The notes under the pieces are model-generated. The model saw nothing but the letters and a program-made list of their open reading frames with translations, had not been told where the DNA came from and ran no database searches. This document shows positions 20,924-55,659 of a stretch of DNA of 64,000 nt, one piece after another (the first letter of the stretch is position 1; every line of letters starts with the position of its first letter). Position numbers and translations under genes: made by a program. Source of the stretch: Gracilariopsis chorda (lineage: Eukaryota; Rhodophyta; Florideophyceae; Gracilariales; Gracilariaceae); NCBI GenBank assembly GCA_003194525.1, contig NBIV01000112.1:178519-242518 (forward strand). Direction: 5' to 3'.

Positions 20924-20943
20924 ACGTCGGTGTTTTCGGGATG
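20924..20943. repeat. Left terminal inverted repeat, copy L
   Basis: Begins ACGTCGGTG. It matches the inverted right end of copy L (30547-30566) at 17 of 20 and the start of copy R (45772-45791) at 18 of 20. Confidence 0.75.
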
Positions 20944-21208
20944 CAAGTTTGGCATTCAAAAGGCAAAGAATTAAAATGAACGAATAACGACTCTTCAAAC
21001 CCAATTTTGAATGAATCAAATTTCTCAAAAACATTCCATTCATAGCACAGAGCTAGTTTGCTTGGGACAAAAGACTAGCAGTATACTAGACATTTCCCAG
21101 TTTCTTTGGAGGTAAAACTAGTGCCAGACTCCACTAATACCTACCATCTCAGGTGCACGTGGAATCCAAATCTTACTGGTCCTGAGCGAGTGCCCCTTCA
21201 AATAGCAA

Positions 21209-21240
21209 AATAGAATAGATAGAATAGATAGAATCGATAC
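21209..21240. repeat. AGAATAGAT microsatellite
   Basis: About three copies of a 9-bp unit (ATAGAATAG) just upstream of the zinc-finger gene. Confidence 0.6.
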
Positions 21241-21265
21241 ATAGCGTTTACATAACCAAATAGCT

Positions 21266-22711
21266 TTGGCTTTGTATCACCCGTTGCCCGTCCTGCTCCC
21301 TGCATCGCATGCTCTACCCCACGCCCTACGAAAAGACGCTCTGCATCACGTGCACCACCTCATCTACGTGCACCATAATATTATGCTCCCCGATATCCCA
21401 CTCCGCCGCCACCCTCCCTTCTCTGTTTCCAAGCATCCCGTTCTCCGTTCTCCTTCCCCCGCCATTATACCCTGTTGCCATCCCCGTTGCACCTTCTATG
21501 GCCGCACCGCGTTCTCTCTCCAGAGTCACCAACGCAGGTGCCCTCATCGACTCACCCCCGACAAAGTCCCTTCCTCCTCCGCCAACGCTCCCGTCCAGTT
21601 CCCTCCAAGGACCAAGCGACGAAAATCCGTTCCAAACCTCTCCACCATTTTTCCTCCCACTCCCTCACACCGCCCCTCCAACAACGTCCCCCTCGCCGAA
21701 GATGAACCCTATCACATCCAAGAAACCTCCCTTTCCCTCCAAACACAAGACGCACACCACATGGCAAGTCACGCCCTCTGTTCAGTCTCCTCCTCAAACC
21801 CACCTCCCCATACCTCGTCCCAATCCCCCTCCCCTCTCCTCAACAACCCCCATCTCGAGCAACTCGTCCTCTGCATCTCCTCCATTGCTTCCTCCTTCAG
21901 CCCACGCAAAGCCGACGAACTCATCTCCCTTCTCAACCACCCAGACTTCTCCAAGTCATCCTTCCAGAAATCCATCTCCTCCGCAAAGCAGTGCCTCGCA
22001 CTCCAAGAACACCTCCTCAAGGAATGCATCAGCTCCAACGGCTTCCTCCCTCTCACACTCACCGACGAGCACAACTCCTTCTCCGCAAACCTCTTCTAAA
22101 AATGCGCCACAGACGTCCTGAAACAACAACTCGCTCTCGCACACTTCAACAACACCTTCTTCCAACCTGTCTCCCAATCTTCCCTTTCCTCCTCTTCCAC
22201 CCCCGCCTTCGCCCATCCTATGGCCGCAGCCTTTGGAAACAAAGTCGTTCCTGCCTTCAAGCAAGCCATCATGCAGTGCCACATCAATGACATCGTCTGG
22301 CACACCCCCGAAACAACCGGTGTGGAATCTTCCGTCGGTTTCGTCCAGTTATACTCCGGTAAGTCCGCCATCTCACTCAAGAGCTCCTCCATCAACTCAT
22401 ATCCCCTTCACATCACCCTTCTCAACTTCTCAGACGCATTCCGCCGAAAGTGTATCTCCGAAAACCTCACCCTCCTCGGATACCTCCCAACCTCCTTCTC
22501 CCCCTCTTCCTCCCCCGACCACGCAGACTTCATCCCACATTCGTCCTCCAGCATCCCACGCAAAACAAGAATGGACCTCATTCAGCGCGCCATCTCTGCA
22601 ATCTTCCGTTTCGAAGGTATCCACAGCGTTACCTTCGCTTCTCTACTCCCATTCCTAGCTATAAAACGCGGGTCACCGTCATCGCAACCTTCATTCTCCA
22701 ATTCTTCATGA
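21266..22711 (+). pseudogene. Zinc-finger KDZ/Plavaka-like transposase, N-terminal half
   Basis: Two frames in one phase (21266-22099 and 22220-22711) joined through a single TAA at 22097-22099. Residues about 70-95 form a Cys2-His-Cys finger (CCHPRC ... HQRRCPH). A long Ser/Pro linker follows. The stretch around 22345-22500 (YSGKSAISL, YPLHITLLNF, FRRKCIS, LLGYLP) has the order of blocks found in Plavaka-type KDZ transposases. There the first block carries a catalytic Asp (SDKT-like), which here is Gly. The later catalytic blocks are absent, so this is a truncated or inactive transposase. It converges with the next gene, overlapping by 53 bp. Family call by motif memory only. Confidence 0.5.
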
Positions 22712-24557
22712 TGTAGTTCTCCCACCCTCTCCAACGCCACCACAAGTATTTTCTCCACCGCAAGCCGAAGATACTCCCCGTACAACTAGAAAATAACAAC
22801 TGCCGTCTTCCTTCACGCCCCATATCTGTGTCCATTGCTGTCAAAACCAATCCGATCCACGCATCCAAACGAGCCAAATGCATCACTGTCTCACCAACGT
22901 ACTCCATCTTTCCCTCCCTTTCCGTCCCCACCTCATATCCCATGAATTCTTCCAACACTTCCACTGCAGCCCCGTTCTTGAAGTACATGTCCTCTTCACT
23001 AAACTCCCTCAGCCGACCAGCAACCTGAAATCCAGAATACGTAAGATCTTCGATTGTTTTCATCCTCCCAGAACATAACCTACCACTCCTCGCCTCCCCA
23101 TCCCCCATGAACTTCGTCTTTACTTCCTCTAACTGCTTCTTCAACTCCATGTCTAGCTCCGTCCCCTCTCGCGGTCCCACACGTCTGGCTATCAAGTGAT
23201 ATCCAGGCAACGAAAACATTTTGTCCCGTGCCGCACGCTTCCGAACCCCAATCACATCACTCAACTTCTGCTTCATACTTTGCCTCAAACACCTGTCCGC
23301 AACAACCTCCCGCACGCATTGATCCTTCCTACCCGCTTCACGAATCGACTCCCATCTCTCCCCCTCAATCTCAACGCCAACCAAGTACTTCAATAGTTCA
23401 TTACTTCCTCCTTGCGACGAAGGCGTGTACGACCTCAGCTCAGACGCAATCTCAAACGGACATCGAGGTACAATCTCCTTTCCTCCTACAACAAACATAC
23501 TCTCCTCTTTGCCCTTCCCCAATACTTCGCATCGATTCTTCCAGTTCCTTTCCACACCCTCCGAAGTAAAACAAAGCTCCGATACCTCCACCTTCGCATA
23601 GTACAACAACCTATCATATACTACCCTGGTAAACCCATAAAAACCCTCTTGCACATCAACCACATACTTCCTACCCCCTCGCAATTCCTTTTCACCTTCA
23701 GATCCCTTTCTCTTCCCTCGTCTCACCTTCATCCCTTCCCGTAACCTATCTATCAGCAAATTCTTCTCGCTCATCTCTTCTCTCATCCTCTTCAGTTCCT
23801 CTTGCGTCAGCTTCAGCGACATCTTTAGGCTGCAGTGGTCCCCTTTGATCTGCCCGAGTTCTGCCTTCAACATATTGACCCTCTCAACTAACAATGATCG
23901 AGACATCACACCGATGTCGTCATTCCCTGCATCTCCCAAAATATTGACAGGCAGCCGTCGCTCCTCAGCAGGCTCACTTGGCGACCGATGAACACTTCGT
24001 TTCCTCTCTCGCATACCTTCCTGAGTCCGCGGCGTTATGCTTCCTTTATCACTTTCCAAGTCTTGAGCCATTTGCACCTTTCGCGCCCGTACCGGGGTGC
24101 TCGTACGTTCTCCACTTTTCGATGCTTCCTGTATTCCATCCGTCGCTCCGACCACTTCTTCCACTTCTCGCGTTTCCTTTAAATCAGAGCGGCGTCCCAC
24201 TCCTTCCTTTATTCTCTCTCTCGTCCATCTCCCCTTCACAATGTGATCCTCTTCGTCCCCATCACTCTCTACCAAAGGGACATTTACCTCTCCTCCATAT
24301 TGATTTCCCCTTGGGGCTCCACCTCTTTTCAGCGCAACTGCCCCTTCCATTTGTTTCCTTTCCGGCATTTCTTCATCTTTATTTCGGCCTTCGACCCGCG
24401 CATTTGCTTTCAACCCTCCCTGATCTGGTACCTCTTCTCTTCTCCTAGCAACTGACCCTTTCTTACCCTCCACCCCACCACCAGACCCAGGCATAGATCG
24501 CTGTCCCCGAACCGAATCTCTCCTGCGTGCTACAAGCGCATGGGCATCAGCCTTCAA
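22659..24557 (-). CDS. Coiled-coil protein of the transposon, unknown function
   Basis: A 632-codon uninterrupted frame, the longest intact ORF of the element. Residues 1-200 are basic, Gly/Arg/Glu-rich and probably disordered. About 205-275 is a heptad-rich coiled coil (SLLVERVNMLKAELGQIKG ... LKRMREEM). About 295-600 looks globular (YVVDVQEGFYGFTRVVYDRLLYYAKVEV and FEIASELRSYTPSS) and matches nothing I recognise. The last 30 residues, Trp-rich, overlap the opposite gene and may be run-through. An upstream basic frame, starting MAPKGKKRGPARG near 24782, ends in a TGA that overlaps this ATG (ATGA), so a spliced N-terminus is possible. Its counterpart in copy R lies outside the window. Confidence 0.55.
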   Translation of the reverse strand: MKADAHALVARRRDSVRGQRSMPGSGGGVEGKKGSVARRREEVPDQGGLKANARVEGRNKDEEMPERKQMEGAVALKRGGAPRGNQYGGEVNVPLVESDGDEEDHIVKGRWTRERIKEGVGRRSDLKETREVEEVVGATDGIQEASKSGERTSTPVRARKVQMAQDLESDKGSITPRTQEGMRERKRSVHRSPSEPAEERRLPVNILGDAGNDDIGVMSRSLLVERVNMLKAELGQIKGDHCSLKMSLKLTQEELKRMREEMSEKNLLIDRLREGMKVRRGKRKGSEGEKELRGGRKYVVDVQEGFYGFTRVVYDRLLYYAKVEVSELCFTSEGVERNWKNRCEVLGKGKEESMFVVGGKEIVPRCPFEIASELRSYTPSSQGGSNELLKYLVGVEIEGERWESIREAGRKDQCVREVVADRCLRQSMKQKLSDVIGVRKRAARDKMFSLPGYHLIARRVGPREGTELDMELKKQLEEVKTKFMGDGEARSGRLCSGRMKTIEDLTYSGFQVAGRLREFSEEDMYFKNGAAVEVLEEFMGYEVGTEREGKMEYVGETVMHLARLDAWIGLVLTAMDTDMGREGRRQLLFSSCTGSIFGLRWRKYLWWRWRGWENYIMKNWRMKVAMTVTRVL

Positions 24558-24782
24558 ATCTCACTCGTCGTGCGCTCGGATCCGACGTTCTCTGCCCCAC
24601 CTCTTCCCCCTCTCTTCAAAGCACCTTCTTCTGACCTCCTCCCCGATAATCCGCTCCTGGAAACACACGATCTTGCTTTCGTTCCACTCGCGGTTCGCTC
24701 CTCAATAGCCTTTCGCCGCGTCTTAGGCGCACTCGCCGCACCACCCCTTGCCGGGCCTCGCTTCTTACCCTTCGGCGCCATT
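24554..24782 (-). CDS. Basic N-terminal frame upstream of coiled-coil gene
   Basis: Starts MAPKGKKRGPARG, Arg/Lys/Ser-rich throughout, and ends with a stop that overlaps the ATG of the 632-codon frame. A nuclear-localisation-like composition and same strand suggest it is an exon or frameshifted start of that gene. It has no recognised domain, and the frame upstream of 24782 looks non-coding. Confidence 0.3.
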
Positions 24783-25076
24783 CTTGGAGTCAAACCTCTT
24801 GCGCAAGTGGCTAGTGACGCTGGGATGGCGCACGCCGTGTGTTGTCCGGGAAAATCTCGCCACCCAATGCGCACAAAAATCTTTGCTTTTTGTGAAATCT
24901 TGAGAATACAATCCTCCGTGGTACCGAAAATGGACGTTTCTGTGTCACATCTATATCGCTTTGTATCTTGTATCCTTACTGAAAAGTGATGTTCTCCTAA
25001 GTTAGTACTACACATCCGTTCAAATAATAAACGTCGCCCTTTAGCCAAGCTGTGGACAAACGTTTATAACAACAAA

Positions 25077-26333
25077 CTAATCAATGACTATAGTTCCATC
25101 CTCCACATTCAAATGGGTTTGCCAGTCATAAACATCACCGTATACGGCGAAGAGTTCCTCTCCTTGCTCTATGTTGGCTGTCGCCTCCATCTTAATAAGT
25201 TCGTAGTCCGTTATTACCCTTGGTGTTCGTCCCACTCCCGGTGTCCGTTTCATTAACACATTACCCTCCCTTTTTTCACGAGGCCATCCACCATGGCATC
25301 TAACTGTTTATTCCCTTTCACGTACTTTGGATCGTTGACATACCCCGCAGTACAAAAAGGGGCAGGAACCCCCCAAAATGGGGTTTGCTTGTTTTCCATG
25401 CCAATTCGTCAGCTGTTTTCGATGCCGAAGTGATTGGAACTGTTGACCGTAGACTTCTATCTCCACCGCATACTTCCGGAAGCGATCCTTCGTCACACCC
25501 ATGACTCCCTCCCCGTAGGTCTTGTGCACTTCTTTCCGATTCGAAAGGTCATGATAAACCAAGGTCCCGTAGAAATAGCACACTACCTCGCCTGCAGCAA
25601 TTCGACGAGTTGCAAACACTCCAACACCAGCCTTTTCGTGACGAATAGTAGACTTGCCCACTTGCAACCCATATTGCACAGCCTCCATTGCCAACAGAGA
25701 ATTCATGTTCTCCAGATTCATTCTTCCCTGCAGCTCCATCGTCCATCCATCCATAGCTTTCTTCCTTCCCAACTTCCCTAGAATTTCACTTTGCCACAAA
25801 GTGGAGAGAAAGTCGACAAGGTGTGTGGGAAGAATTTGGTACGGTGGAAATCCGCCGACAGCCCTCCATAACACGGTGTGCCTGCTTCTTCCCATTGGGA
25901 ATGCAGAGGAAACACAATGGGGCATCTTTCGAAGCTCCTGGCTCTTCTCAATATCCGTGTGTCCTTCCCGTATTATGGAAGCGAAGCGAACAATAGCGGC
26001 ATGCCTGGCGTGTTCAAAGCAGCCTTTGTCCGGTTCACACCCCACAAACTTCCAATGCTTGGGCAGTTCCATGTACGCCATCGCTGTCCAGAACGTTCCG
26101 GCAAACATGCCGACCACGAGGTCTCCTGGCTCACTGAACCTGCAAATCAGCTCTTTCAACAGTGCCCTACACTCCTGTTCCGGTCGCACCCTCTTCCTCG
26201 TATACTTCCCATCCGGGTTTTTCACAGACCATATGGGCATCTCACTATTTGACATAGGCGGCACCTGATCCATGATTGCATGATACGCTTGGTATCGTGA
26301 AGCAACATAATTGAAGTTCTCATAGTTGACCAT
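25077..26333 (-). pseudogene. DNA methyltransferase C-terminal half plus SET domain (copy L)
   Basis: In the same phase as the upstream frame 26382-27686, past one TAA. Residues 70-100 carry motif I DLVVGMFAGT (AdoMet-binding loop) and motif II-like FVGCEPDKGCF. Because DPPY comes first in the upstream frame, the order is beta class. From residue about 232 a SET domain begins (GVGVFATRRIAAGEVVCYFYGTL). Its middle (INDPKYVKGN) is in another frame, and its end (IEQGEELFAVYGDVYDW, 25077-25259) is back in the first, so two small frame changes, shared with copy R, interrupt it. Alternatively these are tiny introns. Predicted roles: methylation of DNA and of a protein, likely histone Lys. Confidence 0.7.
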
Positions 26334-26381
26334 CCGGTGCTGTTGTGCATAAGGAACTCCAGAAAGAACAGCATGTACAGC

Positions 26382-27686
26382 TTATTCTGTCGTCTGGTGC
26401 AACCGGCAACTTCTTCTCCCAACGTTACCCGTCGTATTACCTAAAGACCGTACGAAATGGAGGGGCTGTTCGTCGACGACAAAGGAGTAACGCATCGTAT
26501 CAGATTCATCCATGTAGGTAACTTTCCGTAGCACATCCCGCCACAACGGTACCTGATCCCATGAGCAGAACTGTATAATATGTTCAACAGGACGTAGAAG
26601 CTTTGACGACCTCCTCGCTGACCTGCTCATGCCCTTCTCTGTCAGAATATCGTGTTTGCTGTTCTCCAAACGACGCTCAGAACGAGTCCCATATGGCGGA
26701 TCGGAAAGCAGGAACTGTACCCTTCCTTCAATAGATACCTCGCTTTCGCCAGACTTGTTGTCGTCAACTTCGATGGTATTCTCGAACTTGCAGTTGTGGA
26801 GACGGAAGTCGCGGGACATCTCCTTCTCACAATACTTGTAAGCTATCACATCATCCAAAGTCGTAGGGTACGGTGGTGCACGAATCCCCGTGCCTTCGAC
26901 ATCATACGATAAGTTCTGCGACAAAGCTGTTGTCTGCAGTCCTTCAGTGGCCTTTGGTGCAGTACTACGTTCCGCATCCTCTACCATCTCTATCTCTTCC
27001 ACTTCTCCCAACTCACCCTGATCACCACCTTCCACACGCTCAGCACGTTCGCTCCCACCACCAGCCGTACCAGTTTCTACCGGCCTCATAATGATGTCAA
27101 CGTCTTCTGCGGGCTCTGGTTTCACAGCTTGATGTACTTTGACATTGCTCCCATGCAATGCAATGAGCTTCAGAGGCTTTATGGCCTCTTGAACCGTAGT
27201 GAAAAGAGATTTACTAAAGTTCTCAAAGCGCAGAGGAAAAAGTCTCGTTCTCGTGATGATGAACCTTTTGAGGGCATCCCATTTGCTGGGAGCACAGATG
27301 TGGAACAGTTTCTCTTGTACCACCACATTAGAAAGGTCACCAAGGTATTCTTTGGCACAAAGGCGAAGCGCTGTATCCACTGGGTTCGAAGGATTCCATG
27401 CCCATTTGGTAACGTTTTCTTCTATGGTGGTGACGTTCTTCTCCTCCACAAACTGTTTGGAACAATCTTTGTGTTGGAAGCCCATGGAGCATTGTGCGAT
27501 ATCGGTGAAGACTACACTGATATAGTCGAGTCGAATGTAAGGCAAGATCATAACCTCAACGTTGGGAAACCCGAGGAATTGGGCGAAATAATCCCAAGCC
27601 CTGGTCACCAGCTGCACACCATACCCGACTCTCTGACTCTGGGTCTTGTCCGACAAACTCTCTTTCGAGAACTTCTTAGCTGCCAT
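26382..27686 (-). pseudogene. DPPY DNA methyltransferase N-terminal half (copy L)
   Basis: 434 codons. The catalytic motif IV QFLLSDPPYGT is at residues 324-334. DPPY is typical of N6-adenine or N4-cytosine amino-methyltransferases. An acidic disordered insert lies at about 190-240. It ends in TAA at a position conserved in copy R; 16 more codons continue in phase to the ATG of the next frame, so the enzyme was probably one protein of about 870 residues with the SET domain. Copy R differs at roughly 16 positions. Its target base and specificity cannot be read from the sequence. Confidence 0.7.
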
Positions 27687-28210
27687 GCCCCTTTCCTCTT
27701 CCTACCACTTGCTTTCTTATCCACGGCATTCTGTTGCACCATAGACAACCCAATGACCATTTCAAAGTCGGTGCAAGGATCCGTGTGGAAAGCGGAAGAT
27801 TTCTTGGTTGCTCCCAGAACACAGGACTTGCAAAAGACAGATAGGAACACGTTACGGGGAATTCCTTTAAGCCCTTCCCTTTCACAATACACCTTCCAAA
27901 AGTCCCTTACACGCCTGTCTTCTTCACGGTCCTTTACGTCCACCACTCTTGCCATAAGATAGAGTTGACGTGGAGGGCCTCTGAGAGACATGTTATGGAG
28001 CTCGGAGTCCAAGTACGAGATTTAATCCGGTCTGATGAGAGTGAGAAACATTTTCTTGGCAGAGTTATGAACGTTGCGACTTTGTACCGTGAACTCCATA
28101 AAGTCGGTGTGCTTCAAAATTCTCGGCTCATACACATTTTGCCTCGTCGCTGCGTAGTCATCAGGAACTGCAAGATAAGCATCAATAAGCTCTTCTCCGG
28201 TTCCGTGCAT
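27605..28210 (-). pseudogene. Small cargo gene next to methyltransferase (copy L)
   Basis: Starts at ATG 28210 (MHGTGEELIDAYLA). A TAA (28022-28024) interrupts it where copy R has Tyr in GPDYISY, and it then continues to 27605. It has no recognised family; the protein is mixed alpha/beta and ends in a basic KKASGRKRK-type stretch. It overlaps the start of the methyltransferase frame by about 80 bp in another phase, so it may be the methyltransferase N-terminus reached by splicing or frameshift. Confidence 0.5.
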
Positions 28211-28255
28211 CTTGAATGAACCCGTTTCCTTCGGATTATGTTTCTGTTCGTTTTG

Positions 28256-28403
28256 GGTCGAGGACCGTGGACCGAGGTGTCATGGTGCTCCATCGCGAAC
28301 ACGATGGAGCGCCAGGACGCGAAATGTTAATTAAAACTCATTCCTGGCGCTCCATCTTGTTCGCGATGGAGCACCACGACACCTCGGACGATGGTCCTCG
28401 ACC
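28256..28403. repeat. 148-bp palindrome, copy L unit 1
   Basis: Inverted arms of about 65 bp (starting GGTCGAGGACC and ending GGTCCTCGACC) around an AT-rich centre (TTAATTAAAA). It is a homologue of 28745-28892, 51691-51838 and 52179-52312. It lies immediately upstream of the small gene and methyltransferase start. Confidence 0.85.
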
Positions 28404-28744
28404 AAAAAATTATCAAAAGTTTTTTCCAATGCAAGTAATGGGGAGGGGAATTGTAGGGATGCTACGATGACGACGCATGGATGTCATGAAACGTCTTGAA
28501 AACGATATATAGTGCTTACGTCCATCTCTTTGAAACCAAGCAAGCGTGATCACGGGAGCTTCAAAAGAAAGGGATAACACTGTTGGAGACGACCACTCCG
28601 GTGCTTTGTTTAACAAGAAAAAGTTGTTCTTCGGGTTCAATAGAAGGTTTTCAATCGCCCAAACCGACGCAACGAATGCGGTTGCGAAGAATGCGCAAGA
28701 CGCTTTTGACTTGGTTGCCACGGATTATGTTTCTCTTCATTATG

Positions 28745-28892
28745 GGTCGAGGACCGTGGTCCGAGGTGTCATGGTGCTCCATCGCGAACACGATGGAGCG
28801 CCAGGCATGAATTTTAATAAAAATGTCGCGTCCTGGCGCTCCATCGTGTTCGTGATGGAGCACCACGACACCTCGGACGATGGTCCTCGACC
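28745..28892. repeat. 148-bp palindrome, copy L unit 2
   Basis: Second copy of the palindrome, 489 bp from the first. The flanking 150 bp (ATATATAGTGCTTAC... region at about 28500 and 28990) is duplicated too, so palindrome plus flank form a tandem unit of about 490 bp. Confidence 0.85.
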
Positions 28893-29103
28893 AAAAAATT
28901 ATCAAATTCTTTTTGCAATGCAAGTAGTTGAGAGGCGAATTGCAGGGATGCTACGTTGACGACAATGGATGTCATGAAACGTCTTGAAAACGATATATAG
29001 TGCTTACTTCCATCTCTTTGGAACCAATCATACGTGATCACGGGAGCATTCGACGTCAGCAGGTGCCAAGAAAACGCAAGCGCGACCTTTGAAGTACTCA
29101 GCC

Positions 29104-30093
29104 ATGGATTCCACTGGGAATAAGATAAACGCGCCATCACGGAAATGGACTCCGAGGAAGCCTGTTTCGCCGAAGAGACGTGTTATCGACATGCCGACCA
29201 CGCGAGGCAAAGCGAAGAGCCGGGGCGCCTCCCGAACTGCCAGCCACCCTGAGCTATCAATTGGGGGCAATACGGGTCAGGTGCTTAAGGGCGATGCGGA
29301 GGTCAATCTGTTCGTACGAGTTGGGAGTAGTGATGCGAAGGGGAAGGTAGGAGAGGCGAAATTGCGCGGTGTGGGGGTTGCTGGGGGGCCGGGGACGAGA
29401 CTCTGTCGTTCTCTACACAACCATCCCCTGTCCTCTACGCAGAGGCCTGGAGAGGACTTGGTGGTTATCTTTAAGACAAATATTTCGTCACACCAAGATG
29501 AGAAGTACCCTTATGTTTTTGGGGGTCCCGAGGAACCGCCCGCAACTTTGAAGGAGATGGTTTCAGCGGGTTTATATGCATGGGACACTGCGATGATGAG
29601 TGTCAAAAATGAATGCGGAGAGGGGAATGAGTCGGTTCCACAGCAGTCAGGAGCAAATGTGAAGACTGTCCACAGAAGTACAGCTTCCGGGACCACTGCA
29701 AGACAAGTCAAGCGCCTTCCCGCTGTTGCTGGTACACCATCAAGCATTTTGGTGACCAAAGCGCCGGTGAAGAGCCTTGAGAGCGGTGGAGAGGCTCTGG
29801 TGAAAACCCGTCAGAGCGGTGGAGGAACATCAGGTGCTCTCGCGGGCGGCTGTGGGAACTGAGGAGGCCCTGAAATCGGAGCAAGCTCCGATGATGAAGT
29901 CATAGAGGTGCCTGTACTCTCCAGGAACGATCTTGATCCGGAGGAGAGGTTTTTATATGATGACGGTGATGCTGTTCCTTCGGAAGAGGTGGATAACAGT
30001 TTGGGGGTCTTGGACATCAATTGAGATGATTATGACGAGCACAATTGCGTAATCGATATCCACAACATTCGATTTCCGAAGAATATGGTTCGT
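29104..30093 (+). pseudogene. N-terminal fragment of ParB-like cargo gene (copy L)
   Basis: ATG at 29104 (MDSTGNKINAPSRKW). A Pro/Lys/Arg/Ser-rich N-terminus with MPTTRGKAKSRGASR is followed by an ordered stretch (about 60-150). TGA at 29860 interrupts a Gly-rich segment; the phase continues through VIEVPVLSRNDLD to a second TGA (about 30023) and VIDIHNIRFPKN. The gene is then cut at about 30093 by the internal deletion, before the DGxHR motif. Copy R is sense at the first position and has its own stop 7 codons on, so the two copies died separately. Confidence 0.7.
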
Positions 30094-30333: not shown

Positions 30334-30546
30334 ATCTTTATCTATCTTTTAGTGGAGAATGAACTTGCTCCAAACTTGAAACTAGCGATGCGCAGTGCAG
30401 GTGAGACAAGGCTCTGTAAGATATGGAAGTGTGAGTTCTAAACAATTTTTTTACTTGGCAAGCGCCAGAAACTAGCAGAATCTATCATTTTCGTAGTATT
30501 TTTGAGCTTTTGCCTAAGAAACTTGCGATCTAGCACCCCTATCTAG

Positions 30547-30566
30547 CATTCTGAGAACACCGACGT
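30547..30566. repeat. Right terminal inverted repeat, copy L
   Basis: Inverted match to 20924-20943 (17 of 20). It is followed by AATCCCGT, the candidate target duplication. Confidence 0.75.
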
Positions 30567-30637
30567 AATCCCGTATCACCGTTAATCGGGTAGTATTCTA
30601 TTTGCTACAGTTCATCATGTTCCATCAGTGAGGATCT

Positions 30638-38384: not shown

Positions 38385-38386
38385 AG

Positions 38387-43328: not shown

Positions 43329-44261
43329 TGGGGCAACGCGAAAGGCGTGGAAATCGCAATGATGCTACTCATAGGAGTGTGACGTGGTTACCGTGACGGC
43401 TCTACCTTATATGAGTTGGGCCCGTACGAGGTGATGCCAATGGGATAGTTTACTGTGCGAACTTTCACCTAGGAAGGTAGGAACCTAGAATGGATTGCAG
43501 GATTAGTGGAGGCGTGTGCGCGTGTGCGACAACACCATGCTGCAGTGTTATGTTTTAGTTGGGTTGACCCCTCAGGGTCCCTGACACTGGCCTGGCCAAG
43601 TGTGTTGACTTGAGGAGGTGTGGACTATTGTAGTTAATTATTATAATTTATTTGGTAGCATAACCACTTAGTTGCGCGCGACCTCATCGTCGCGAGCACT
43701 AAGCAAAGTTAACCAGAGACTCCAGTCATTCATAACTGTTCAGTTTGACCTGAGGTATCCGGATCTGGATTCTGACGTCGCTGCGCCATGTACTACTCCT
43801 CGCGGAGGGTCACCGCATTCGGTTCGCTTAGTTCACCCGCTCGGTAAACCTACAGATACTCTGTGCTATAATTTTCTTGTGACATTATCTACCGTGTGGT
43901 ACTGGTATCGCCCCTGTATTGGGTAGTTCGTTCGCTATATCTCGTGCATGTGCACCATCCGTCGGGTCTGTTTCCGCTTTCCGAACGACTCGCTGGGTGG
44001 TTTTTCTCCGCCCTTTGAAGGCACCCTTCACCGGGTATATTCTAAACCGCCGCATTGCGTGGGACACCGGTCTCTGGTTTTACCAACTTTCTGTCTCCCG
44101 TTCGCCGTTCTTTATCCACCTCTGTGGTCAATCCGAAATACCTACGGAGTTACGCCCGTATTACAGGTATACAGAGGGCTCTGTCACTGGGTCTGCCTCC
44201 ACACGGAGCAAGGCCCCGGACACCTCGAGTGTGATACCCAACCTTTGGGTTTTGCACTACA
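43329..44261 (+). repeat. Element D 3' LTR
   Basis: Preceded by AAGGAGGGGGA (polypurine tract) and followed by CGATG (44262-44266), then element C gag. Partner of 37457-38384. Confidence 0.92.
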
Positions 44262-45112: not shown

Positions 45113-45114
45113 CT

Positions 45115-45771: not shown

Positions 45772-45791
45772 ACGTCGGTGTTCTCGGAATG

Positions 45792-46250
45792 TTAGATAGA
45801 GGTGCTAGATCGCAAGTTTCTTAGGCAAAAGCTCAAAAATACTAGGAAAAGGATAGATTCTGCTAGTTTCGGGCGGTTGCCAAGTAAAAAAAATTTTCTT
45901 TTTGGAATTCACACTTCCATATCTTACAGAGCCTTGCCTCACCTGCACTGCGCATCGCTAGTTTCAAGTTTGGAGCAAGTTCATTCTCCACTAAAAGATA
46001 GATACAGATCTCAAAATGGCGCTGGCCACGCAGCGGCCATCGCCATTTCGTGCACCCAACCAAAACTAACATTTTCATTTCCATCTTTTGAATTTCAAAC
46101 TTCATACTGCCCTAGTTTGACTTCCAACTCATCCTCAGGAACTCATCTGGGTACCTCTCTCCGTTCTCACACACCCGACGCACCGCGCATCAGATTCCAA
46201 TACCACCCATTCCATCGTCCTAACAGCCTCAACGACACTCCTAAACATCA
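45792..46250. other. Subterminal region of copy R
   Basis: Matches copy L 30100-30545. It contains a hairpin at about 46013-46049 (AAATGGCGCTGGCC/GGCCATCGCCATTT type). No gene is credible. Shared subterminal repeats are typical transposase-binding regions, but binding is not shown. Confidence 0.6.
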
Positions 46251-46937
46251 CTAGCCTTCTTCTCCCTCTTCCCTCTTTCCATGCCTCCTCTTCAACCGAA
46301 TCCTAACCTCCAATCCTTCTTTGTCCTTCTGCTCCAACCTCCTTTTCACGCCCCTTCTACCTCCAGGAGTAACCGGAGACCAACTCCCGACAGCACCTCC
46401 CACCCCACCTTCCCCTCCACCTCCATACATCTTGTTCCGCATATCCTCGACTAGATGCAGAGCCCTGTCCACCAGTAAAAGCCGCTTCTCCAACTCCAAA
46501 ATCCGTCCTCGCAACTCTTCATTCTCCTTCCACAGCCTCCCCAGCTCCTCTCCCACACACGCCACAACCCCATCGACGTGCTGCTCTGCTCACACCCCAG
46601 CCTCCCTCACCCTCCGGCGCAACTCAGCCACAGCACCCATCGGCAGTCCTTCCTCCGACGCACTCAGAACCATCCCTCCCAACTCCACGACAACCTCCTC
46701 AATACACTCATCCAAGCGCTCCTTAATCCCTCCCCCAGCGCTCCTCAATAGTTCCTTCACATCGCGGTAGAACCCATCCATTCGTTTCCCTCCACCTCCC
46801 CCTACCCCTCCTCCTCGACCACCCTCGCCCGCACCTCCCTCCCCACAATCCCCTCCCATCATCGTCCCAACCCCAAGCTCACTGACCGAAAATTGCAAAT
46901 AGTAGTCATGGTGCGTGTGGATGTTCTCAAATGACAT
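46251..46937 (-). pseudogene. Gly-rich coiled-coil cargo protein (one stop)
   Basis: Two frames in the same phase, 46937-46590 (115 codons from ATG MSFENIHTHHDYY) and 46565-46251, split by one TGA. The joined length is about 229 residues. A Gly-rich stretch (about 32-50) precedes a helical region (FYRDVKELLRSAG ... CIEEVVVELGG), then after the stop a coiled coil (LWKENEELRGRILELEKRLLLV) and a basic tail (RRGVKRRLEQKDK). No known family; a DNA-binding accessory protein is possible. Deleted from copy L. Confidence 0.5.
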
Positions 46938-47603: not shown

Positions 47604-48671
47604 TCAATGGCTTTCATCGTCCTCACCTATCAGACCCTCTGCTCCTTTAGGAACCATTTCACCCTCATCGTCATCCTCCTGTTCATAATCTCCATCAGTG
47701 TTCATTTCCACTGGTTTCAGTATATTCTCATCGTCCTCCTCATCCGACGGGTTCTCACCTTCGGCTTCTTGCATAACTACATCTCTATCGTCAGCTTCAT
47801 CTCCCCGCTCCCCTTCCCCTCCTCCCACCTCACATAAATCGCCACGGTCCTCTTCATCATTAAAAAAGGGAGGGCAAAAACCGCTTTGCCTATGCACCGC
47901 ATCCGGGAGATTGTATCCCTCAGGTACAAAGTACATATGGTATCGCATGCAATAGCCTTTCGCTATTCCATCATTGTACCCAGTCCCAGCATGAAATACA
48001 TCCCCTCTTCCAATGAACACAGAAAACGGTGGAACTCTGAACTTCCAAACCATCATAGAAGACGAAAGCTCTTTCAGGTTACCCCGTGTCAATGTTAGAC
48101 TATGTGACCGTTCACAAACCCAAATCATGAACGCATCCGGTCCCGATGCCATTGCAAAATACCCCGGGTTCACATTTCTCATCCTGTCATTCTCCGTGAA
48201 ACCCCTGAAATCCGTGTGTAGCACCTGCCTCGGACAATCCTCTCCAGTACAAAGGATACGGCCACCCGTGTGAGGGGCATACATCTCTCCACCTTCAGAC
48301 AACCCGGGAGCCGCTGCAATCTGACCGAGCCTTGCATCCAACATGGCTCTCTTTCGAGCAAGAACCGCACCGTTTTCAAGCTCCTCAACTCTGTCCGCAA
48401 TTCCTCGTTTGGTTGTGATGAAACGACCCACCGTCTTGATACCATTCTTAACATCGTTTACCCCTCCTTCATTGATGATCATATTCCTGAAAACACGATT
48501 GGCTTCGTTCGTGAGATCCGGTTGCGAAACAAAGTCGCGTTCGAAGAAGTCCATCAGTTCTCCTATCACATCTTCGTCCATTTGCAGTCCCCTCCTCGAA
48601 GCCTCACTCGCCATGCCTTCATCTGTCCCGAAATTATCCAGCACACAAAACCCTCTCTCCGACAGCTCCAC
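47604..48671 (-). pseudogene. Fe(II)/2-oxoglutarate-dependent dioxygenase
   Basis: 355-codon frame whose start is GTG, so it is the continuation of an upstream frame rather than a true start. Metal and cosubstrate residues are in the right order: His152-x-Asp154 (RQVLHTDF), His227 (GRGDVFHAGTGY) and Arg243 (CMRYHMYF), 16 residues later. The acidic C-terminal tail (270-355) is Glu/Asp-rich. Such enzymes hydroxylate or demethylate proteins, nucleic acids or small molecules. TET/JBP and AlkB are DNA-acting members, but I cannot place this one in a subfamily. Its neighbours are DNA and chromatin enzymes, which favours a nucleic-acid or histone substrate (inference). Absent from copy L. Confidence 0.7.
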
Positions 48672-49420
48672 TCTCTTCTTTGCAAAGTAACACGAGCCAA
48701 GTCCTCTCTCTCAAAAGCGGCCATCCATAACGCTTCCTCTTCATTCGATGCCGTTCCTGATGACGGCATCTTCATGCCCAGCACTGCACGTGTCGTAGTA
48801 CCCATCTCTTTGTGCATGTTGCGCGACGCACGCCAGTACACAGCATGATGAACTATTCGGAAGTCATCAGGTGATAGGCACTCCGCCCGATGGTGCTTCC
48901 TCAGATTTATCCTCTGCATCCATGGATGGGAATGCTTCACTGCATTTCCGCTTGCAGCCCACTCACTCGGCAACGAGTATACCAGGTCCACCCAAGACAT
49001 GTCCGCTCCCATAGTCAGCTCTCCTGGCGTACTTAAGCCAGCTGGAAGCTTGTCAGGATTCTTATCGTCAAAGCTGCCTGCGGTTTGCTGCTCTTCTGCC
49101 TCGTCTTTCTCATCATCCACAAAGTCCTCCTGAGCTTCATCCTCGCTTGAATCGAGCACAATGATCTCCTGTGCTGTCAACCACCTCTTCAAATCTCTCC
49201 TTTCCATGTTACGCAGCACCTCCACCACCTCCTGCGAGATACCAAAGCCAGGTCGCTTCACACCAGGTGCAGTCGGCTTACGATTCGATCGTCTCTGCCT
49301 CTTCACCGGTGGCTCAAAATCAACTGACTGTTCATCTTCATCTTCGTCCAGGACCTGCACTTTACGCTTCTTTGATATTCGCTTACTTCTTCGAGGCTCC
49401 TGCTCAGGGTTTGGAGGCTC
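48672..49420 (-). pseudogene. Middle segment linking ParB-like and dioxygenase parts
   Basis: Frame 49360-48566 is in the same phase as the ParB-like frame, separated only by the TAG at 49421-49423. It begins with basic nuclear-signal-like KRQRRSNRKP and acidic runs, then an ordered part (SWVDLVYSLPSEWAAS, HHAVYWRASRNMHKEMG). Near 48680 (LARVTLQRRE) it passes by a one-base shift into the dioxygenase frame (VELSERGFCVLDNF). It therefore reads as a linker and N-terminal cap of the dioxygenase in a single ancestral gene. Confidence 0.55.
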
Positions 49421-50674
49421 CTAAGCAGCTTCCTCATTCAGACCAAGCAACTCGATCACGTCCACATCGGCCGCAGAAGGAGCAGCAGCAGTAGGATCCT
49501 GTCCCTGAATGCCCGACAAAGCGCTGGACAACGTCCTACGAACCTCTTTCACCTTATTACTCACTCTGGACTCCAGTGAGCTGCGTTTCCCTTTCGTATA
49601 CCACTTCCCCAGACGAGATATGATATACTTTGACACAATCTGGTCAGAATCGCCGATGGTAACCGTGGTATTCATCACTTCCTGTACATTCCTTTTCTCC
49701 TTCATGGAACTCCCCAGCTCACTGGGAATGTCATACGTTCTAGAAGCGCAGTCGAAGAAGTACCTTTGGAAATCCTCAAACGGTCCCATCTTCACAGCGG
49801 CCGCCGACCTCACTCGAACATGCGCCTGTAGACATTGGATAGTAAAACGAATCTTATCCCCTGACATTCCAAGCAGAATATCACTAGACACATGAGTGAT
49901 TCCAATTTGAGGCGTCTCCTGCCACACCACATCGAAGAACTCTAACAGACCGGGATTACGCGCAAACTTCAGAGCAAGAGCAGAATAGCGATTGAAATGA
50001 CGTATCTTCCCTTCTTTCCCCTTCGTCTCACTGCTCCACAACACCCCCGTGATTTCGCTTGGTTTAAGCTTCGACAACTCATACCCATCCTGCTCTACGC
50101 CATTACGAATAAACGAAACAGCAGTGTGAATCTTATCTGCGAAAGACATCACCAGAACATTGGAGCTCAAACCATTCAACGTCTTCGCCAGCCACAACAC
50201 CTCATTCAATGTCATTCTCCGGCCGTCGTTCCGTTCCCAAAGCGTGACCTTCAAACCAGCAGTAATCCGTGCCCATCTCGCACCATCCAGCTCGAGGTCC
50301 AGTAGAACACTCACTCGATGGAAGCCGTCCACCAAAACCACAGGAACAATCAAAGGCCCACTCGCATCAATAGCGTCACGAACCGGCACATTCTCAAACA
50401 GGGCCACCGCAATCGACCCAAGAGAAGGGAGCCATCCGAATTTCCTAAGTTTGTTCGAAGTATCTCGAAGATGTTTGTCATTCTTCGAACGAACCACTTT
50501 CTTCGGAAATCGAATGTTGTGGATATCGATTACGCAATTGTGCTGGTCATAATCATCTCGATTGATGTCTAAGCCCCCAAAATTGTTATCCACCTCTTCC
50601 GAAGGAACAGCATCACCGTCATCATATAAAACCCTCTCCTCCAGATCAAGATCGTTCCTGGAGAGTACAGGCAC
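49421..50674 (-). pseudogene. ParB-like DGxHR domain protein
   Basis: 417-codon frame. Residues 48-125 resemble the ParB/Srx N-terminal fold: VIDIHNIRFPKK at the start and VVLVDGFHRVSVLLDL (DGxHR at 116-120), the nucleotide-binding and catalytic signature. Residues about 125-400 are helical (MTLNEVLWLAKTLNGLSSNV, TIQCLQAHVRVRSAAAVK). In phages and bacteria such domains often sit beside or fused to DNA methyltransferases, matching this neighbourhood. The frame continues upstream through one TGA (50702) to ATG 51478 and downstream through TAG into the dioxygenase segment. Confidence 0.65.
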
Positions 50675-50701
50675 CTCTATGACGTCATCATCGGAGCTTG
50701 C

Positions 50702-51478
50702 TCAGATTTCAGGGCCTCCTCCGTTTCCAGAGCCGCCCGCGAGAGCACCTGATGTTCCTCCACCGCTCTGACGGGTTTTCACCGGAGCCTCTCCACCGCT
50801 CTCAAGGCTCTTCACCGGCGCTTTGGTCACCAAAATGCTTGATGGTGTACCAGCAACAGTGGGAAGGCACTTGACTTGTCTTGCAGTGGTCTTGGAAGCT
50901 GTACTTCTGTGGAAAGTCTTCACATTTGCTCCTGACTGCTGTGGAACCGACTCATTCTCTTCTCCGCTTTCATTTTTGACACTCATCATCGCAGTGTCCC
51001 ATGCATATAAACCCGCTGAAACCATCTCCTTCAAAGTTGCGGGCGGTTCCTCGGGACCCCCAAAAACATAAGGGTACTTCTCATCTTGGTGTGACGAAAT
51101 ATTTGTCTTAAAGATAACCACCAAGTCCTCTCCAGGTCTCTGCGTAGAGGACAGGGGATGGTTGTGTAGAGAACGACAGTGTCTCGTCCCTGGCCCCCCA
51201 GCAACCCCCACACCGCGCAATTTCGCCTCTCCTACCTTCCCGTTCGCATCACTACTCCCAACTCGTACGAACAGATTGACCTCCGCATCGCCCTTAAGCA
51301 CCTGACCCGTATTGCCCCCAATTGATAGCTCAGGGTGGCTGGCAGTTCGGGAGGCGCCCCGGCTCTTCGCTTTGCCTCGCGTGGTCGGCATGTCGATAAC
51401 ACGTCTCTTCGGCGAAACAGGCTTCCTCGGAGTCCATTTCCGTGATGGCGCGTTTATCTTATTCCCAGTGGAATCCAT
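50702..51478 (-). pseudogene. N-terminal segment of ParB-like gene (copy R)
   Basis: ATG at 51478 (MDSTGNKINAPSRKW), immediately beside the palindromic region. Basic, Ser/Pro-rich residues 1-55, then an ordered stretch with DLVVIFKTNISSH and PATLKEMVSAGLYAWDTAMM, then a Gly/Ser linker. The TGA at 50702-50704 is GGA (Gly) in copy L. Copy L instead has a TGA seven codons earlier, where this copy has GGA. The phase is that of the ParB-like frame. Confidence 0.65.
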
Positions 51479-51690
51479 GGCTGAGTACTTCAAAGGTCGC
51501 GCTTGCGTTTTCTTGGCACCTGCTGACGTCGAATGCTCCCGTGATCACGTATGATTGGTTCCAAAGAGATGGACGTAAGCACTATATATCGTTTTCAAGA
51601 CGTTTCATGACATCCATGCGTCGTCATCGTAGCATCCCTGCAATTCCCCTCCCCATTACTTGCATTGCAAAAAACTTTTGATAATTTTTT

Positions 51691-51838
51691 GGTCGAGGAC
51701 CATGGTCCGAGGTGTCGTGGTGCTCCATCGCGAACAAGATGGAGCGCCAGGAATGAATTTTAATTAAAATTTCGCGTCCTGGCGCTCCATCGTGTTCGCA
51801 ATGGAGCACCATGACACCTCGGACCACGGTCCTCGACC
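51691..51838. repeat. 148-bp palindrome, copy R unit 1
   Basis: Arms beginning GGTCGAGGACC, inner GGAGCACC/GGTGCTCC and GGAGCGCCAGGA/TCCTGGCGCTCC pairs, AT-rich centre. Homologous to 28745-28892. Confidence 0.85.
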
Positions 51839-52178
51839 CATAACGAAGAGAAACATAATCCGTGGCAACCAAGTCAAAAGCGTCTTGCGCATTCTTCGCA
51901 ACCGCATTCGTTGCGTCGGTTTGGGGGATTGAAAACTTCTATTGAACCCGAAGAACAACTTTTTCTTGTTAATCAAAGCACTGGAGTGGTCGTCTCCAAC
52001 AGTGTTACCCCTTTCTTTTGAAGCTCCCGTGATCACGCTTGCTTGGTTCCAAAGAGATGGACGTAAGCACTATATATCGTTTTCAAGACGTTTCATGACA
52101 TCCATGCGTCGTCATCGTAGCATCCCTGCAATTCCCCTCCCCATTACTTGCATTGCAAAAAACTTTTGATAATTTTTT

Positions 52179-52312
52179 GGTCGAGGACCATGGTCCGAGG
52201 TGTCGTGGTGCTCCATCGCGAACAAGATGGAGCGCCAGGAATGAATTTTAATTAAAATTTCGCGTCCTGGCGCTCCATCGTGTTCGCGATGGAGCACCAT
52301 GACACCTCGACC
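52179..52312. repeat. Palindrome, copy R unit 2 (outer arm shortened)
   Basis: Same palindrome lacking about 14 bp of the outer right arm (ends CACCTCGACC). Homologous to 28256-28403. Confidence 0.85.
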
Positions 52313-52357
52313 CAAAACGAAGAGAAACATAATCCGAAGGATACGGGTTCATTCAAG

Positions 52358-52963
52358 ATGCACAGAACCGGAGAAGAGCTTATTGATGCTTATCTTGCAG
52401 TTCGTGATGACTACGCAGCGACGAGGCAAAATGTGGATGAGCCGAGAAGTTTGAAGCACACCGACTTTATGGAGTTCGCGGTACAAAGTCGCAACGTTCA
52501 TGACTCTGCCAAGAAAATGTTTCTCACTCTCATCGGACCGGATTACATCTCGTACTCGGACTCCGAGCTCCGTAACATGTCTCTCAGAGGCCCTCCACGT
52601 CAACTCTATCTTATAGCAAGAGTGGTGGACGTAAAGGACCGTGAAGAAGACAGGCGTGTAAGGGACTTTTGGAAGGTTTATTGTAAAAGGGAAGGGCTTA
52701 AAGGAATTCCCCGTAACGTGTTGCTATCTTTCTTTTGCAAGTCCCGTGTTCTGGGAGCAACCAAGAAATCTTCCGCTTTCCACTCAGATCCTTGCACCGA
52801 CTTTGTAATGGTCATTGGGTTGTCTATGGTGCAACAAAATGCCGTGGATAAGAAAGCAAGTGGTAGGAAGAGGAAAGTGGCATGGCAGCTAAGAAGTTCT
52901 CGAAAGAGAGTTTGTCGGACAAGACCCAGAGTCAGAGAGTCGGGTATGGTGTGCAGCTGGTGA
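52358..52963 (+). CDS. Small cargo gene next to methyltransferase (copy R)
   Basis: 201 codons from ATG 52358 (MHRTGEELIDAYLAV), intact here while copy L has a stop. Motifs: KHTDFMEFAVQSRNVHDSAKKM, RQLYLIARVVDVKDREEDRR, ending in basic KKASGRKRK. Unknown family. Its last 82 bp overlap the methyltransferase frame in a different phase, and the shared tail of about 25 residues looks like run-through. It may be the first exon of the methyltransferase. Confidence 0.5.
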   Translation: MHRTGEELIDAYLAVRDDYAATRQNVDEPRSLKHTDFMEFAVQSRNVHDSAKKMFLTLIGPDYISYSDSELRNMSLRGPPRQLYLIARVVDVKDREEDRRVRDFWKVYCKREGLKGIPRNVLLSFFCKSRVLGATKKSSAFHSDPCTDFVMVIGLSMVQQNAVDKKASGRKRKVAWQLRSSRKRVCRTRPRVRESGMVCSW

Positions 52964-54186
52964 CAAGGGCTTGGGATTGTTTCGCCCAATTCCTCGGGTT
53001 TCCCAACGTTGAGGTTATGATCTTGCCTTACATTCGACTCGACTATATCAGTGTAGTCTTCACCGATATCGCACAATGCTCCATGGGCTTCCAACACAAA
53101 GATTGTTCCAAACAGTTTGTGGAGGAGAAGAACGTCACCACCATAGAAGAAAACGTTGCCAAATGGGCATGGAATCTGCCGGACCCAATGGATACAGCGC
53201 TTCGCCTTTGTGCCAAAGAATACCTTGGTGACCTTTCTAATGTGGTGTTACAAGAGAAACTGTTCCACATCTGTGCTCCCAGCAAATGGGATGCCCTCAA
53301 AAGGTTCATCATCACGAGAACGAGACGTTTTCCTCTGCGGTTTGAGAACTTTAGTAAATCTCTTTTCACTACGGTTCAAGAGGCCATAAAGCCTCTGAAG
53401 CTCATTGCATTTCATGGGAGCAATGTCAAAGTACATCAAGCTGTGAAACTAGAACCCGCAGAAGACGTTGACATCATTATGGAGCCAGTAGAAACTGGTA
53501 CGGCTGGTGGTGGGAGCGAACGTGCTGAGCGTGTGGAAGGTGGTGATCAGGGTGAGTTGGGAGAAGTGGAAGAGATAGAGATGGTAGAGGATGCGGAACA
53601 TAGTACTGCACCAAAGGCCACTGAAGGACTGCAGACAACAGCTTTGTCGCAGAACTTATCGTATGATGTCGAAGGCACGGGGATTCGTGCACCACCGTAC
53701 CCTACGACTTTGGATGATGTGATAGCTTACAAGTATTGTGAGAAGGAGATGTCCCGCGACTTCTGTCTCCACAACTGCAAGTTCGAAAATATCATCGAAG
53801 TTGACGACAACAAGTCTGGCGAAAGCGAGGTATCTATTAAAGGAAGGGTACAGTTCCTGCTTGCCGATCCGCCATATGGGACTCGTTCTGAGCGTCGTTT
53901 GGAGAACAGCAAACACGATATTCTGACAGAGAAGGGCATGAGCAGGTCAGCGAGGAGGTCGTCAAAGCTTCTACGTCCTGGTGAACATATTATACAGTTC
54001 TGCTCATGGGATCAGGTACCGTTGTGGCGGGATGTGCTACGGAAAGTTACCTACATGGATGAATCTGATACGATGCGTTACTCCTTTGTCGTCGACGAAC
54101 AGCCCCTCCATTTCGTACGGTCTTTAGGTAATACGACGGGTAACGTTGGGAGAAGAAGTTGCCGGTTGCACCAGACGACAGAATAA
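52882..54186 (+). pseudogene. DPPY DNA methyltransferase N-terminal half (copy R)
   Basis: 434 codons from the first ATG after an in-frame TAG. QFLLADPPYGT (motif IV) at residues 324-334, acidic insert at about 200-240. Ends at TAA 54184-54186, at the same place as copy L. The phase continues with 16 sense codons to the next frame. Copy R keeps the catalytic DPPY. Whether the TAA is a fixed lesion, lies in an unrecognised intron or is bypassed cannot be told. Confidence 0.7.
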
Positions 54187-55491
54187 GCTGTACATGCTGT
54201 TCGTTCTGGAGTTCCTTATGCACAACAGCACAGGATGGTCAACTATGAGAACTTCAATTATGTTGCTTCACGATACCAAGCGTATCATGCAATCATGGAT
54301 CAGGTGCCACCTATGTCAAATAGTGAGATGCTCATATGGTCTGTGAAAAACCCGGATGGGAAGTATACGAGGAAGAGGGTGCGACCGGAACAGGAGTGTA
54401 GGGCACTGTTGAAAGAGCTGATTTGCAGGTTCAGTGAGCCAGGAGACCTCGTGGTCGGCATGTTTGCCAGAACGTTCTGGACAGCGATGGCGTACATGGA
54501 ACTGCCCAAGCATCGGAAGTTTGTGGGGTGTGAACCGGACAAAGGCTGCTTTGAACACGCCAGGCATGCCGCTATTGTTCGCTTCGCTTCCATAATACGG
54601 GAAGGACACACGGATATTGAGAAGAGCCAGGAGCTTCGAAAGATGCCCCATTGTGTTTCCTCTGCATTCCCAATGGGAAGAAGCAGGCACACCGTGTTAT
54701 GGAGGGCTGTCGGCGGATTTCCACCGTACCAAATTCTTCCCACACACCTTGTCGACTTTCTCTCCACTTTGTGGCAAAGTGAAATTCTAGGGAAGTTGGG
54801 AAGGAAGAAAGCTATGGATGGATGGACGATGGAGCTGCAGAGAAGAATGAATCTGGAGAACATGGATTCTCTATTGGCAATGGAGGCTGTGCAATATGGG
54901 TTGCGAGTGGGCAAGTATACTATTCGTCACGAAAAGGCTGGTGTTGGAGTGTTTGCAACTCCTCGAATTGCTGCAGGCGAGGTAGTGTGCTATTTCTACG
55001 GGACCTTGGTTTATCATGACCTTTCGAATCGGAAAGAAGTGCACAAGACCTACGGGGAGGGAGTCATGGGTGTGACGAAGGATCGCTTCCGGAAGTATGC
55101 GGTGGAGATAGAAGTCTACGGTCAACAGTTCCAATCACTTCGGCATCGAAAACAGCTGACGAATTGGCATGGAAAACAAGCAAACCCCATTTTGGGGGAT
55201 TCCTGCCCCTTTTTGTACTGCGGGGTATATCAACGATCCAAAGTACGTGAAAGGGAATAAACAGTTAGATGCCATGGTGGATGACCTCGTGAAAAAAGGG
55301 AGGGTAATGTGCCAATGAAACGGACACCGGGAGTGGGACGAGCACCAGGGGGAATAACGGACTACAAACTTATTAAGATGGAGGCGAAAGCCAACATAGA
55401 GCAAGGAGAGGAACTCTTCCCCATATACGGTGGTGTTTATGACTGGCAAACCCATTTGAATGTGGAGGATGGAACTATAGTCATTGATTAG
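54187..55491 (+). pseudogene. DNA methyltransferase C-terminal half plus SET domain (copy R)
   Basis: Main frame 54235-55260, SET end 55309-55491, same phase. Motif I is VVGMFART: the second Gly-position residue is Arg here but Gly in copy L, so AdoMet binding is probably lost in this copy. SET start GVGVFATPRIAAGEVVCYFYG; middle INDPKYVKGNKQLD in a shifted frame (about 55210-55300); end IEQGEELFPIYGGVYDW. The TAA/TGA between 55258 and 55306 are shared with copy L. Confidence 0.7.
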
Positions 55492-55659
55492 TTTGTTGTT
55501 ATAAACCTTTGTCCACAGCTTGGCTAAAGGGCGACGTTTATTACTTGAACGGATGTGTAGTCCTAACTTAGGAGAACATCACTTTTCAGTAAGGATACAA
55601 GATACAAAGCGATATAGATGTGACACAGAAACGTCCATTTTCGGTACCACGGAGGATTG

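Follow-up and report, generated by a model that had tools for sequence, protein, structure and literature searches.

The closest described kin that we found for the mobile element reported here are the fungal TET+ Plavaka and other TET+ DNA transposons (Kojima 2025, PMC12730594). According to the parts of that paper available to us, the CMCT clade, to which Plavaka belongs, is defined by C(2)C and H(3-4)H motifs between the second D and the E of the transposase and by a target duplication of 2-5 bp, with 2 or 3 bp for Plavaka; SET genes are cited there from HarbingerS and oomycete MuDR transposons. Judging from the accessible text of three further papers, dinoflagellate and charophyte retrotransposons have captured C5 DNA methyltransferases (PMC5890265); N4CMT of bdelloids was captured from bacteria, is fused to a chromodomain and is linked to SETDB1 (PMC8885841); and in Amoebidium, intron-poor genes form giant repeats that a Plavaka transposase flanks, while red algae and dinoflagellates are noted there to have related genes (PMC11244446). 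Here, we describe two decayed transposon copies, L and R, in a window of 64,000 nt (the whole stretch analysed; forward strand of contig NBIV01000112.1, positions 178,519-242,518, assembly GCA_003194525.1) from the red alga Gracilariopsis chorda (Rhodophyta), together with their relatives in the same genome. We favour, with some reserve, the reading that they belong to a Plavaka-type (CMCT) cut-and-paste family with a mobile chromatin-modification cassette that marks the element's own chromatin.

We searched the genome (91.3 Mb in 1,081 contigs) with a 1,060-bp probe from the left end and a 491-bp probe from the right end of the element. The best 40 of 143 candidate places for the left-end probe and the best 40 of 132 for the right-end probe, the latter matched at full length, were all 93-100% identical. 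Since both probes match at least 40 places each, the element is a repeat family in this genome; the conservation of its ends across genome copies, which the original prediction from the window alone had put forward as a check, is thereby confirmed. We distinguish family 1 (L, R and their kin), a younger sister family (family 2) and a third, diverged cassette (family 3). For family 1, we read ten longer copies, a single short one and the terminal regions of a further nine; the longest copies have terminal inverted repeats of ~23 bp, CGTCGGTG...CACCGACG. Within the window, the nonamer ACGTCGGTG is found at 20924-20932, 30558-30566 and 45772-45780, i.e. three matches where 0.5 are expected; because 3/100 shuffles likewise gave three, the nonamer is weak evidence by itself, and the genome copies carry the case.

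We then compared the flanks of 22 copies (20 of family 1, L, and one of family 2) with their ends aligned on CGTCGGTG. With the border at CG, a choice first made by eye in the same copies that were later counted, the 2-bp flanks are equal in 15/22 copies and differ in the other seven; shuffled pairing of flanks averaged 3.4 such copies and never exceeded 10 in 5,000 trials. When the border is shifted outward by 1, 2, 3 or 4 bases, equal 2-bp flanks are found in 1, 0, 0 and 4 of the 22, and no copy has equal 3-bp or 8-bp flanks. Two of the unmatched copies, C212a and C212b, have a common left flank; if only one of them is counted, the result is 15/21. We conclude that the target duplication is 2 bp. 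In copy L it is TA, at 20923-20924 and 30566-30567, enclosing a left terminal inverted repeat at 20925-20947 (plus strand), which begins CGTCGGTGTTTTCG, and a right one at 30543-30565 (minus strand). The 8-bp duplication originally proposed for L has to be abandoned, as that register gives 6/8 in L alone and 0-4/8 in the other 21 copies.

The transposase places the element among known superfamilies. The profile of the Plavaka transposase (PF18759) matches a 1,160-amino acid (aa) frame of family 2 with an E-value of 2.7e-21 and the family 1 copy C1 with 8.8e-19, both above cut-off. Copy L alone gives an E-value of 1.4e-5 and 25.0 bits, where the cut-off is 26.3, and exceeds it, at 26.4 bits, only together with its neighbours in frame. 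This remnant (21248-22606, plus strand; tblastn 64%) covers residues 2-457 of the family 2 frame, its core being deleted, and had been overlooked in the original prediction, whose description of the element as a DNA transposon with cargo otherwise stands. In the 1,160-aa frame we saw by eye CPRC and HLLDH, corresponding to the C(2)C and H(3-4)H motifs between the second D and the E, and the 2-bp duplication in 15/22 copies falls within the 2 or 3 bp of Plavaka. Judged by its transposase, the element is assignable to the Plavaka type of the CMCT clade and, by its termini, lies outside the two named sublineages. PlavakaA and PlavakaB are ruled out since CGTCGGTG..CACCGACG is neither TGT..ACA nor CATCA..TGATG. 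We also rejected KDZ/Zisupton, with its 8-bp duplication (Zisupton), as 0/22 copies have equal 8-bp flanks.

The first cargo protein is predicted from its sequence to be a DNA amino-methyltransferase joined to a SET domain, in one open frame of 1,065 aa. This fusion is backed by Pfam and by 12 database relatives, in which the fused domains are kept down to 27% identity, and its methylase half also by fold. The methylase half matches PF01555 and has DPPY (motif IV) before FxGxx (motif I) in 13/14 aligned members; its structural model resembles the CcrM and MboIIA folds in a structure search. We therefore regard it as a bacterial-type beta-class DNA amino-methyltransferase, with predicted activity and base specificity. 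The SET profile PF00856 matches above cut-off in family 2 (E-value 8.9e-5) and family 3 (7.2e-6) and below cut-off in the window frame (0.047), and the alignment shows the conserved SET columns GTLVY, ND, N and GE..YG-type. In the window, the fusion gene is decayed in both copies: in L it lies at 25080-28225 (minus strand; tblastn 65-68% to the 1,065-aa frame), with frame breaks such as that between 26382 and 26333, and in R at 52343-55488 (plus strand; 67-68%), with DPPY at 53866-53877, motif I at 54457-54477 and the SET motifs between 54997 and 55431. In both L and R, Gly replaces the motif I Asp that does not vary among 14 aligned relatives, and R reads FART in place of FAGT. Thus, a DNA methyltransferase and a SET domain as cargo of a DNA transposon, as first proposed from DPPYGT and FAGT in beta order and SET blocks, are upheld by Pfam, relatives and methylase fold; these motifs, DGFHR and HTD...H...R were all found in window frames. 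The proposal had listed the enzymes as separate genes; the enzyme parts are present, but methylase and SET form one frame in intact relatives, and so do the ParB-like and dioxygenase-like parts of the second cargo protein.

That second protein, 1,417 aa in family 2, had been described as ParB-like and 2-oxoglutarate dioxygenase cargo, of which the motifs are present and the folds were not confirmed. Searches of Pfam, NCBIfam and PDB profiles gave no support for either assignment, and the structure model is poor (predicted local distance difference test, pLDDT, 37.5); hence, we name both parts by their motifs alone. In copy R, where stops and frame changes break the gene (47610-51463, minus strand; tblastn 58-68% to the 1,417-aa frame), DGFHR lies at 50315-50332, HTDF at 48207-48218, GDVFHAG at 47985-48005 and RYHMY at 47931-47945. 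A single relative, P0001, turned up; it has the two parts arranged in the same order, at 26-30% identity. The HxD...H...R set is present in R and in family 2, and the His or Asp of HxD is lost in C1, family 3 and P0001. With these losses in three compared sequences and no supporting profile match, it is quite possible, at somewhat short of an even chance, that both labels are wrong, the protein being no dioxygenase and unrelated to ParB, and that the element only writes marks. Against this stand DG-x-HR/NR in the ParB-like part and the distal His and Arg in the dioxygenase-like part, each kept in 4/4 aligned sequences, and the recurrence of sulfiredoxin, which has a ParB-superfamily fold, among non-significant fold matches (best E-value 0.86).

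Genome copies differ in completeness. The longest family 1 copies read (C1, C135 and C39) are 15.8-16.2 kb long; the other 7/10 longer copies and L all lack one and the same 2.4-kb segment, which contains the transposase core, and the deletion in L corresponds to positions 1683-4039 of C1. Another copy, C7b, is a 6.5-kb internal deletion derivative without much of the cargo, and three further end pairs have the same spacing of ~6.5 kb. Family 2 includes near-identical copies (C53/C48, 99.7% over 11.8 kb; C31/C53, 99.7% over 10.2 kb), and its methylase-SET protein is 72-73% identical to that of family 1. Its frames are unbroken in a minority of copies: the transposase in four matches, an 821-aa open reading frame (ORF2) in C53 and C31, the methylase-SET frame in 4 of 23 full-length matches, and the ParB-like/dioxygenase-like frame in C204 and C550, with one stop in C31. 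ORF5 (417 aa) and ORF6 (276 aa) are also found unbroken, although no single family 2 copy among those read was shown to have every frame unbroken. We conclude that family 2 is younger, with recent copies. The transposase, the ParB-like/dioxygenase-like gene, ORF5 and ORF6 point one way, and ORF2 and the methylase-SET gene the opposite way. ORF5 (L052:1040-2290 in family 2), between the ParB-like/dioxygenase-like gene and the right end, looks membrane-spanning by eye.

Between families 1 and 2, the ratio of nonsynonymous to synonymous substitution rates (dN/dS), estimated in part from decayed family 1 copies and at high dS (0.62-1.28), is 0.18-0.23 for methylase-SET, 0.14 for the ParB-like/dioxygenase-like gene, 0.24 for ORF2 and 0.31 for the transposase. 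Because these values are low, the cargo was constrained while the families diverged, i.e. under purifying selection. The comparison of L with R gives dN/dS values of 0.84 and 1.40, based on few changes, and both copies seem to be decaying freely. Their decay and these ratios would fit cargo genes that do nothing for the element, being passive passengers or genes of the host that it picked up accidentally; we consider this very improbable given the between-family values of 0.14-0.23, the fused domains retained in distant relatives and the presence of the cassette in three families.

All three families read have palindromes between the two divergent cargo genes, recognized by arm length and identity and without a shuffle control. 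The arms are 50-67 nt in family 1 and 37-40 nt in family 3 (three palindromes in C117, at least two in C637); in family 2, one palindrome has 43-nt arms that are 100% identical and another has 47-nt arms that are 94% identical, and there is no spacer. In the window, copy L has one at 28251-28408 (67-nt arms, 91%) and a second at 28740-28897 (66-nt arms, 91%), and copy R at 51686-51843 (67-nt arms, 91%) and 52191-52314 (50-nt arms, 92%). Since the palindromes of family 3 look different in sequence from those of the other families, it is reasonable to infer a cognate binding protein. Dam methylation signals the state of a copy to the transposase of bacterial Tn10, and the cassette could regulate transposition likewise, methylated ends or palindromes allowing the transposase to recognize old or replicated copies and SET serving as an auxiliary targeting arm. 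The CcrM- and MboIIA-like fold, the palindromes of three families and the many copies agree with this. We nevertheless think it decidedly unlikely, as the palindromes lie between cargo genes and not at the ends, a deletion derivative without much cargo exists alongside three equally spaced end pairs, and the SET domain is hard to account for.

We determined how often the cassette accompanies the transposon by counting methylase-SET loci within 15 kb of a Plavaka match, or of an end among the matches listed. Of 113 merged loci, 88 are linked in this way: 55/68 in family 1, 33/36 family 2-like, 0/8 in family 3 and 0/1 other. Conversely, 35/43 typed ParB-like/dioxygenase-like matches lie near methylase-SET. 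The genome has 114 Plavaka-type transposase matches and, as 65/113 of those typed lie near methylase-SET, many Plavaka genes are without this cargo nearby. Seven phycobilisome-linker loci score above cut-off, each on a contig of its own, and four of these contigs (C12, C60, C144 and C153) also hold methylase-SET loci, which indicates a red algal host. The original prediction had asked whether cargo occurs unlinked to the ends; mostly it is linked, yet the eight family 3 loci have no Plavaka nearby, at least three of them lying near contig ends. The cassette thus seems, from these neighbourhoods, not to be confined to the Plavaka-type element. Family 3 keeps the divergent gene pair, in full in C117 (L057 and L058) and in part in C637 (L059), whose neighbourhood, read in part, is homologous to that of C117 at 91%. 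Because the C117 pair sits beside OrsD-like and helicase-like frames, away from Plavaka, the sequence context suggests a cassette that passes from one type of element to another.

Under our favoured reading, that of a Plavaka-type family whose cassette marks its own chromatin, a complete copy would comprise a DDE-type transposase and a mobile cassette of two fused proteins, encoded divergently around a palindrome-bearing region. In element DNA, the methylase-SET fusion may methylate adenine or, less probably, cytosine at N4, and it may also methylate a lysine of the histones on that chromatin; with these marks, element genes might stay expressed despite host silencing or be decoupled from it. 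The second cargo protein may bind the palindromes and tune or remove the mark. We infer this function in vivo from enzyme family. A six-frame profile search of the whole genome gave no match to C5 DNA methyltransferases (PF00145). A more elaborate version, which we hold to be rather unlikely, is a self-contained two-layer system that the transposon brings into a host without these enzymes: the first protein would place a bacterial-type mark on DNA bases and another on the histones of one nucleosome, and the second would bind palindromic control sites like ParB and erase or spread the mark. The chromatin state of the element would then be passed on without depending on the host, and the cassette itself would move between unrelated elements. 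Also rather unlikely, in our view, is that the cassette silences, marking the element or its rivals as repressive chromatin and limiting copy number or host damage, like bdelloid N4CMT with SETDB1 but transposon-borne; a selfish element would, however, seldom gain from self-silencing.

The favoured reading is tempered by the unmatched flanks and the choice of border, the uncontrolled palindromes, the material behind the dN/dS values, and the missing profile support, poor model and HxD losses of the second protein, and by further observations. Family 3 methylase has DAPT for DPPY. SET is identified by Pfam and motifs, the rows of the fold search being occupied by the methylase domain. The methylase-SET frame is shorter (476-650 aa) in 19/23 full-length family 2 matches. 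Because C53 and C48 are without the ParB-like/dioxygenase-like gene and the 6.5-kb copy is without much cargo, the cargo is not needed in cis. Finally, the 8/113 cassette loci without a Plavaka match or listed end within 15 kb are 42-44% identical.

The two window copies were correctly recognized as inverted and as sharing terminal inverted repeats: L 24908-28263 aligns with R 52305-55660 at 98%, and further shared blocks are mostly 93-98% identical. Neither is a whole element; both are dead, decayed relics. L is without the transposase core and ~4.2 kb on the right, including most of the ParB-like/dioxygenase-like gene, of which a 5' remnant is left (29119-30093, plus strand; tblastn 49%). 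R is truncated at 55660 and has lost its left part, to which the transposase and the bulk of ORF2 belong. Window genes were assigned to family 2 frames by tblastn, which also identified ORF2 in L (22600-24904, minus strand; 40-57%) and, in R, ORF6, a small charged protein (46272-46892, minus strand; 68%), and a stub of ORF5 (46878-46937, minus strand; 20 residues, 75%, E-value 8.6e-5). The right-end terminal inverted repeat of R, an end match, lies at 45773-45795 (plus strand). Over a 1,026-bp SET-end probe L and R are 99% identical and the other 38 copies among the matches listed are at most 96%; since L and R are closer to each other than to other listed copies, a local hop or duplication is suggested by sequence identity. 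At the left end, absent from R, copy C51 is 98% identical to L. Retroelement frames with reverse transcriptase, RNase H and integrase flank the copies (6824-12532, which also has a chromodomain, and 57009-63000). Between L and R are paired 300-bp direct repeats (37457-38211 and 43327-44088; 92-94% identical, ~5.87 kb apart) and a frame (39492-40367) with a weak, below-cut-off match to DUF535 (E-value 4.8e-5).

Transposons with chromatin enzymes illustrate the ways in which parasites of the genome resist the silencing imposed by their hosts or rewrite it. If our reading is right, the methyltransferase-SET fusion would link base marks to histone marks within one enzyme, a coupling that can be tested because a single genome contains recent copies whose frames are unbroken. 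The element also opens a way into the study of red algal DNA modification. Among the titles and abstract openings listed by searches of openly licensed literature, we found no transposon described with such a fusion. Fungal TET+ Plavaka share with the element the Plavaka transposase, 2-bp (or 3-bp) duplications, dioxygenase-like cargo and a cargo thought to act on DNA methylation (PMC12730594). The element differs in its red algal host, in its ends, which are not TGT..ACA or CATCA..TGATG, and in its methyltransferase-SET fusion, none being described in the portion of that paper available, where ParB appears 0 times and SET domain once; unlike the TET/JBP cargo of fungal elements, its dioxygenase-like part gave no TET/JBP match. 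HarbingerS and oomycete MuDR likewise carry SET on a DNA transposon, but belong to other superfamilies, and the same portion mentions no methyltransferase fusion. Retrotransposons with C5 enzymes also mobilize a methyltransferase (PMC5890265), whereas here a predicted bacterial-type amino-methyltransferase rides on a cut-and-paste element. Bdelloid N4CMT is similarly a bacterial-type amino-methyltransferase fused to a chromatin domain, with transposon carriage not stated in the text available (PMC8885841). Amoebidium giant repeats are also large Plavaka-flanked units, but their named cargo is tyrosine recombinases, and the accessible text does not mention methylase-SET (PMC11244446). Thus, relative to these sources as far as they are accessible, Plavaka-type transposons with cargo thought to act on DNA methylation are already known, and what is new here is the methyltransferase-SET fusion as cargo.
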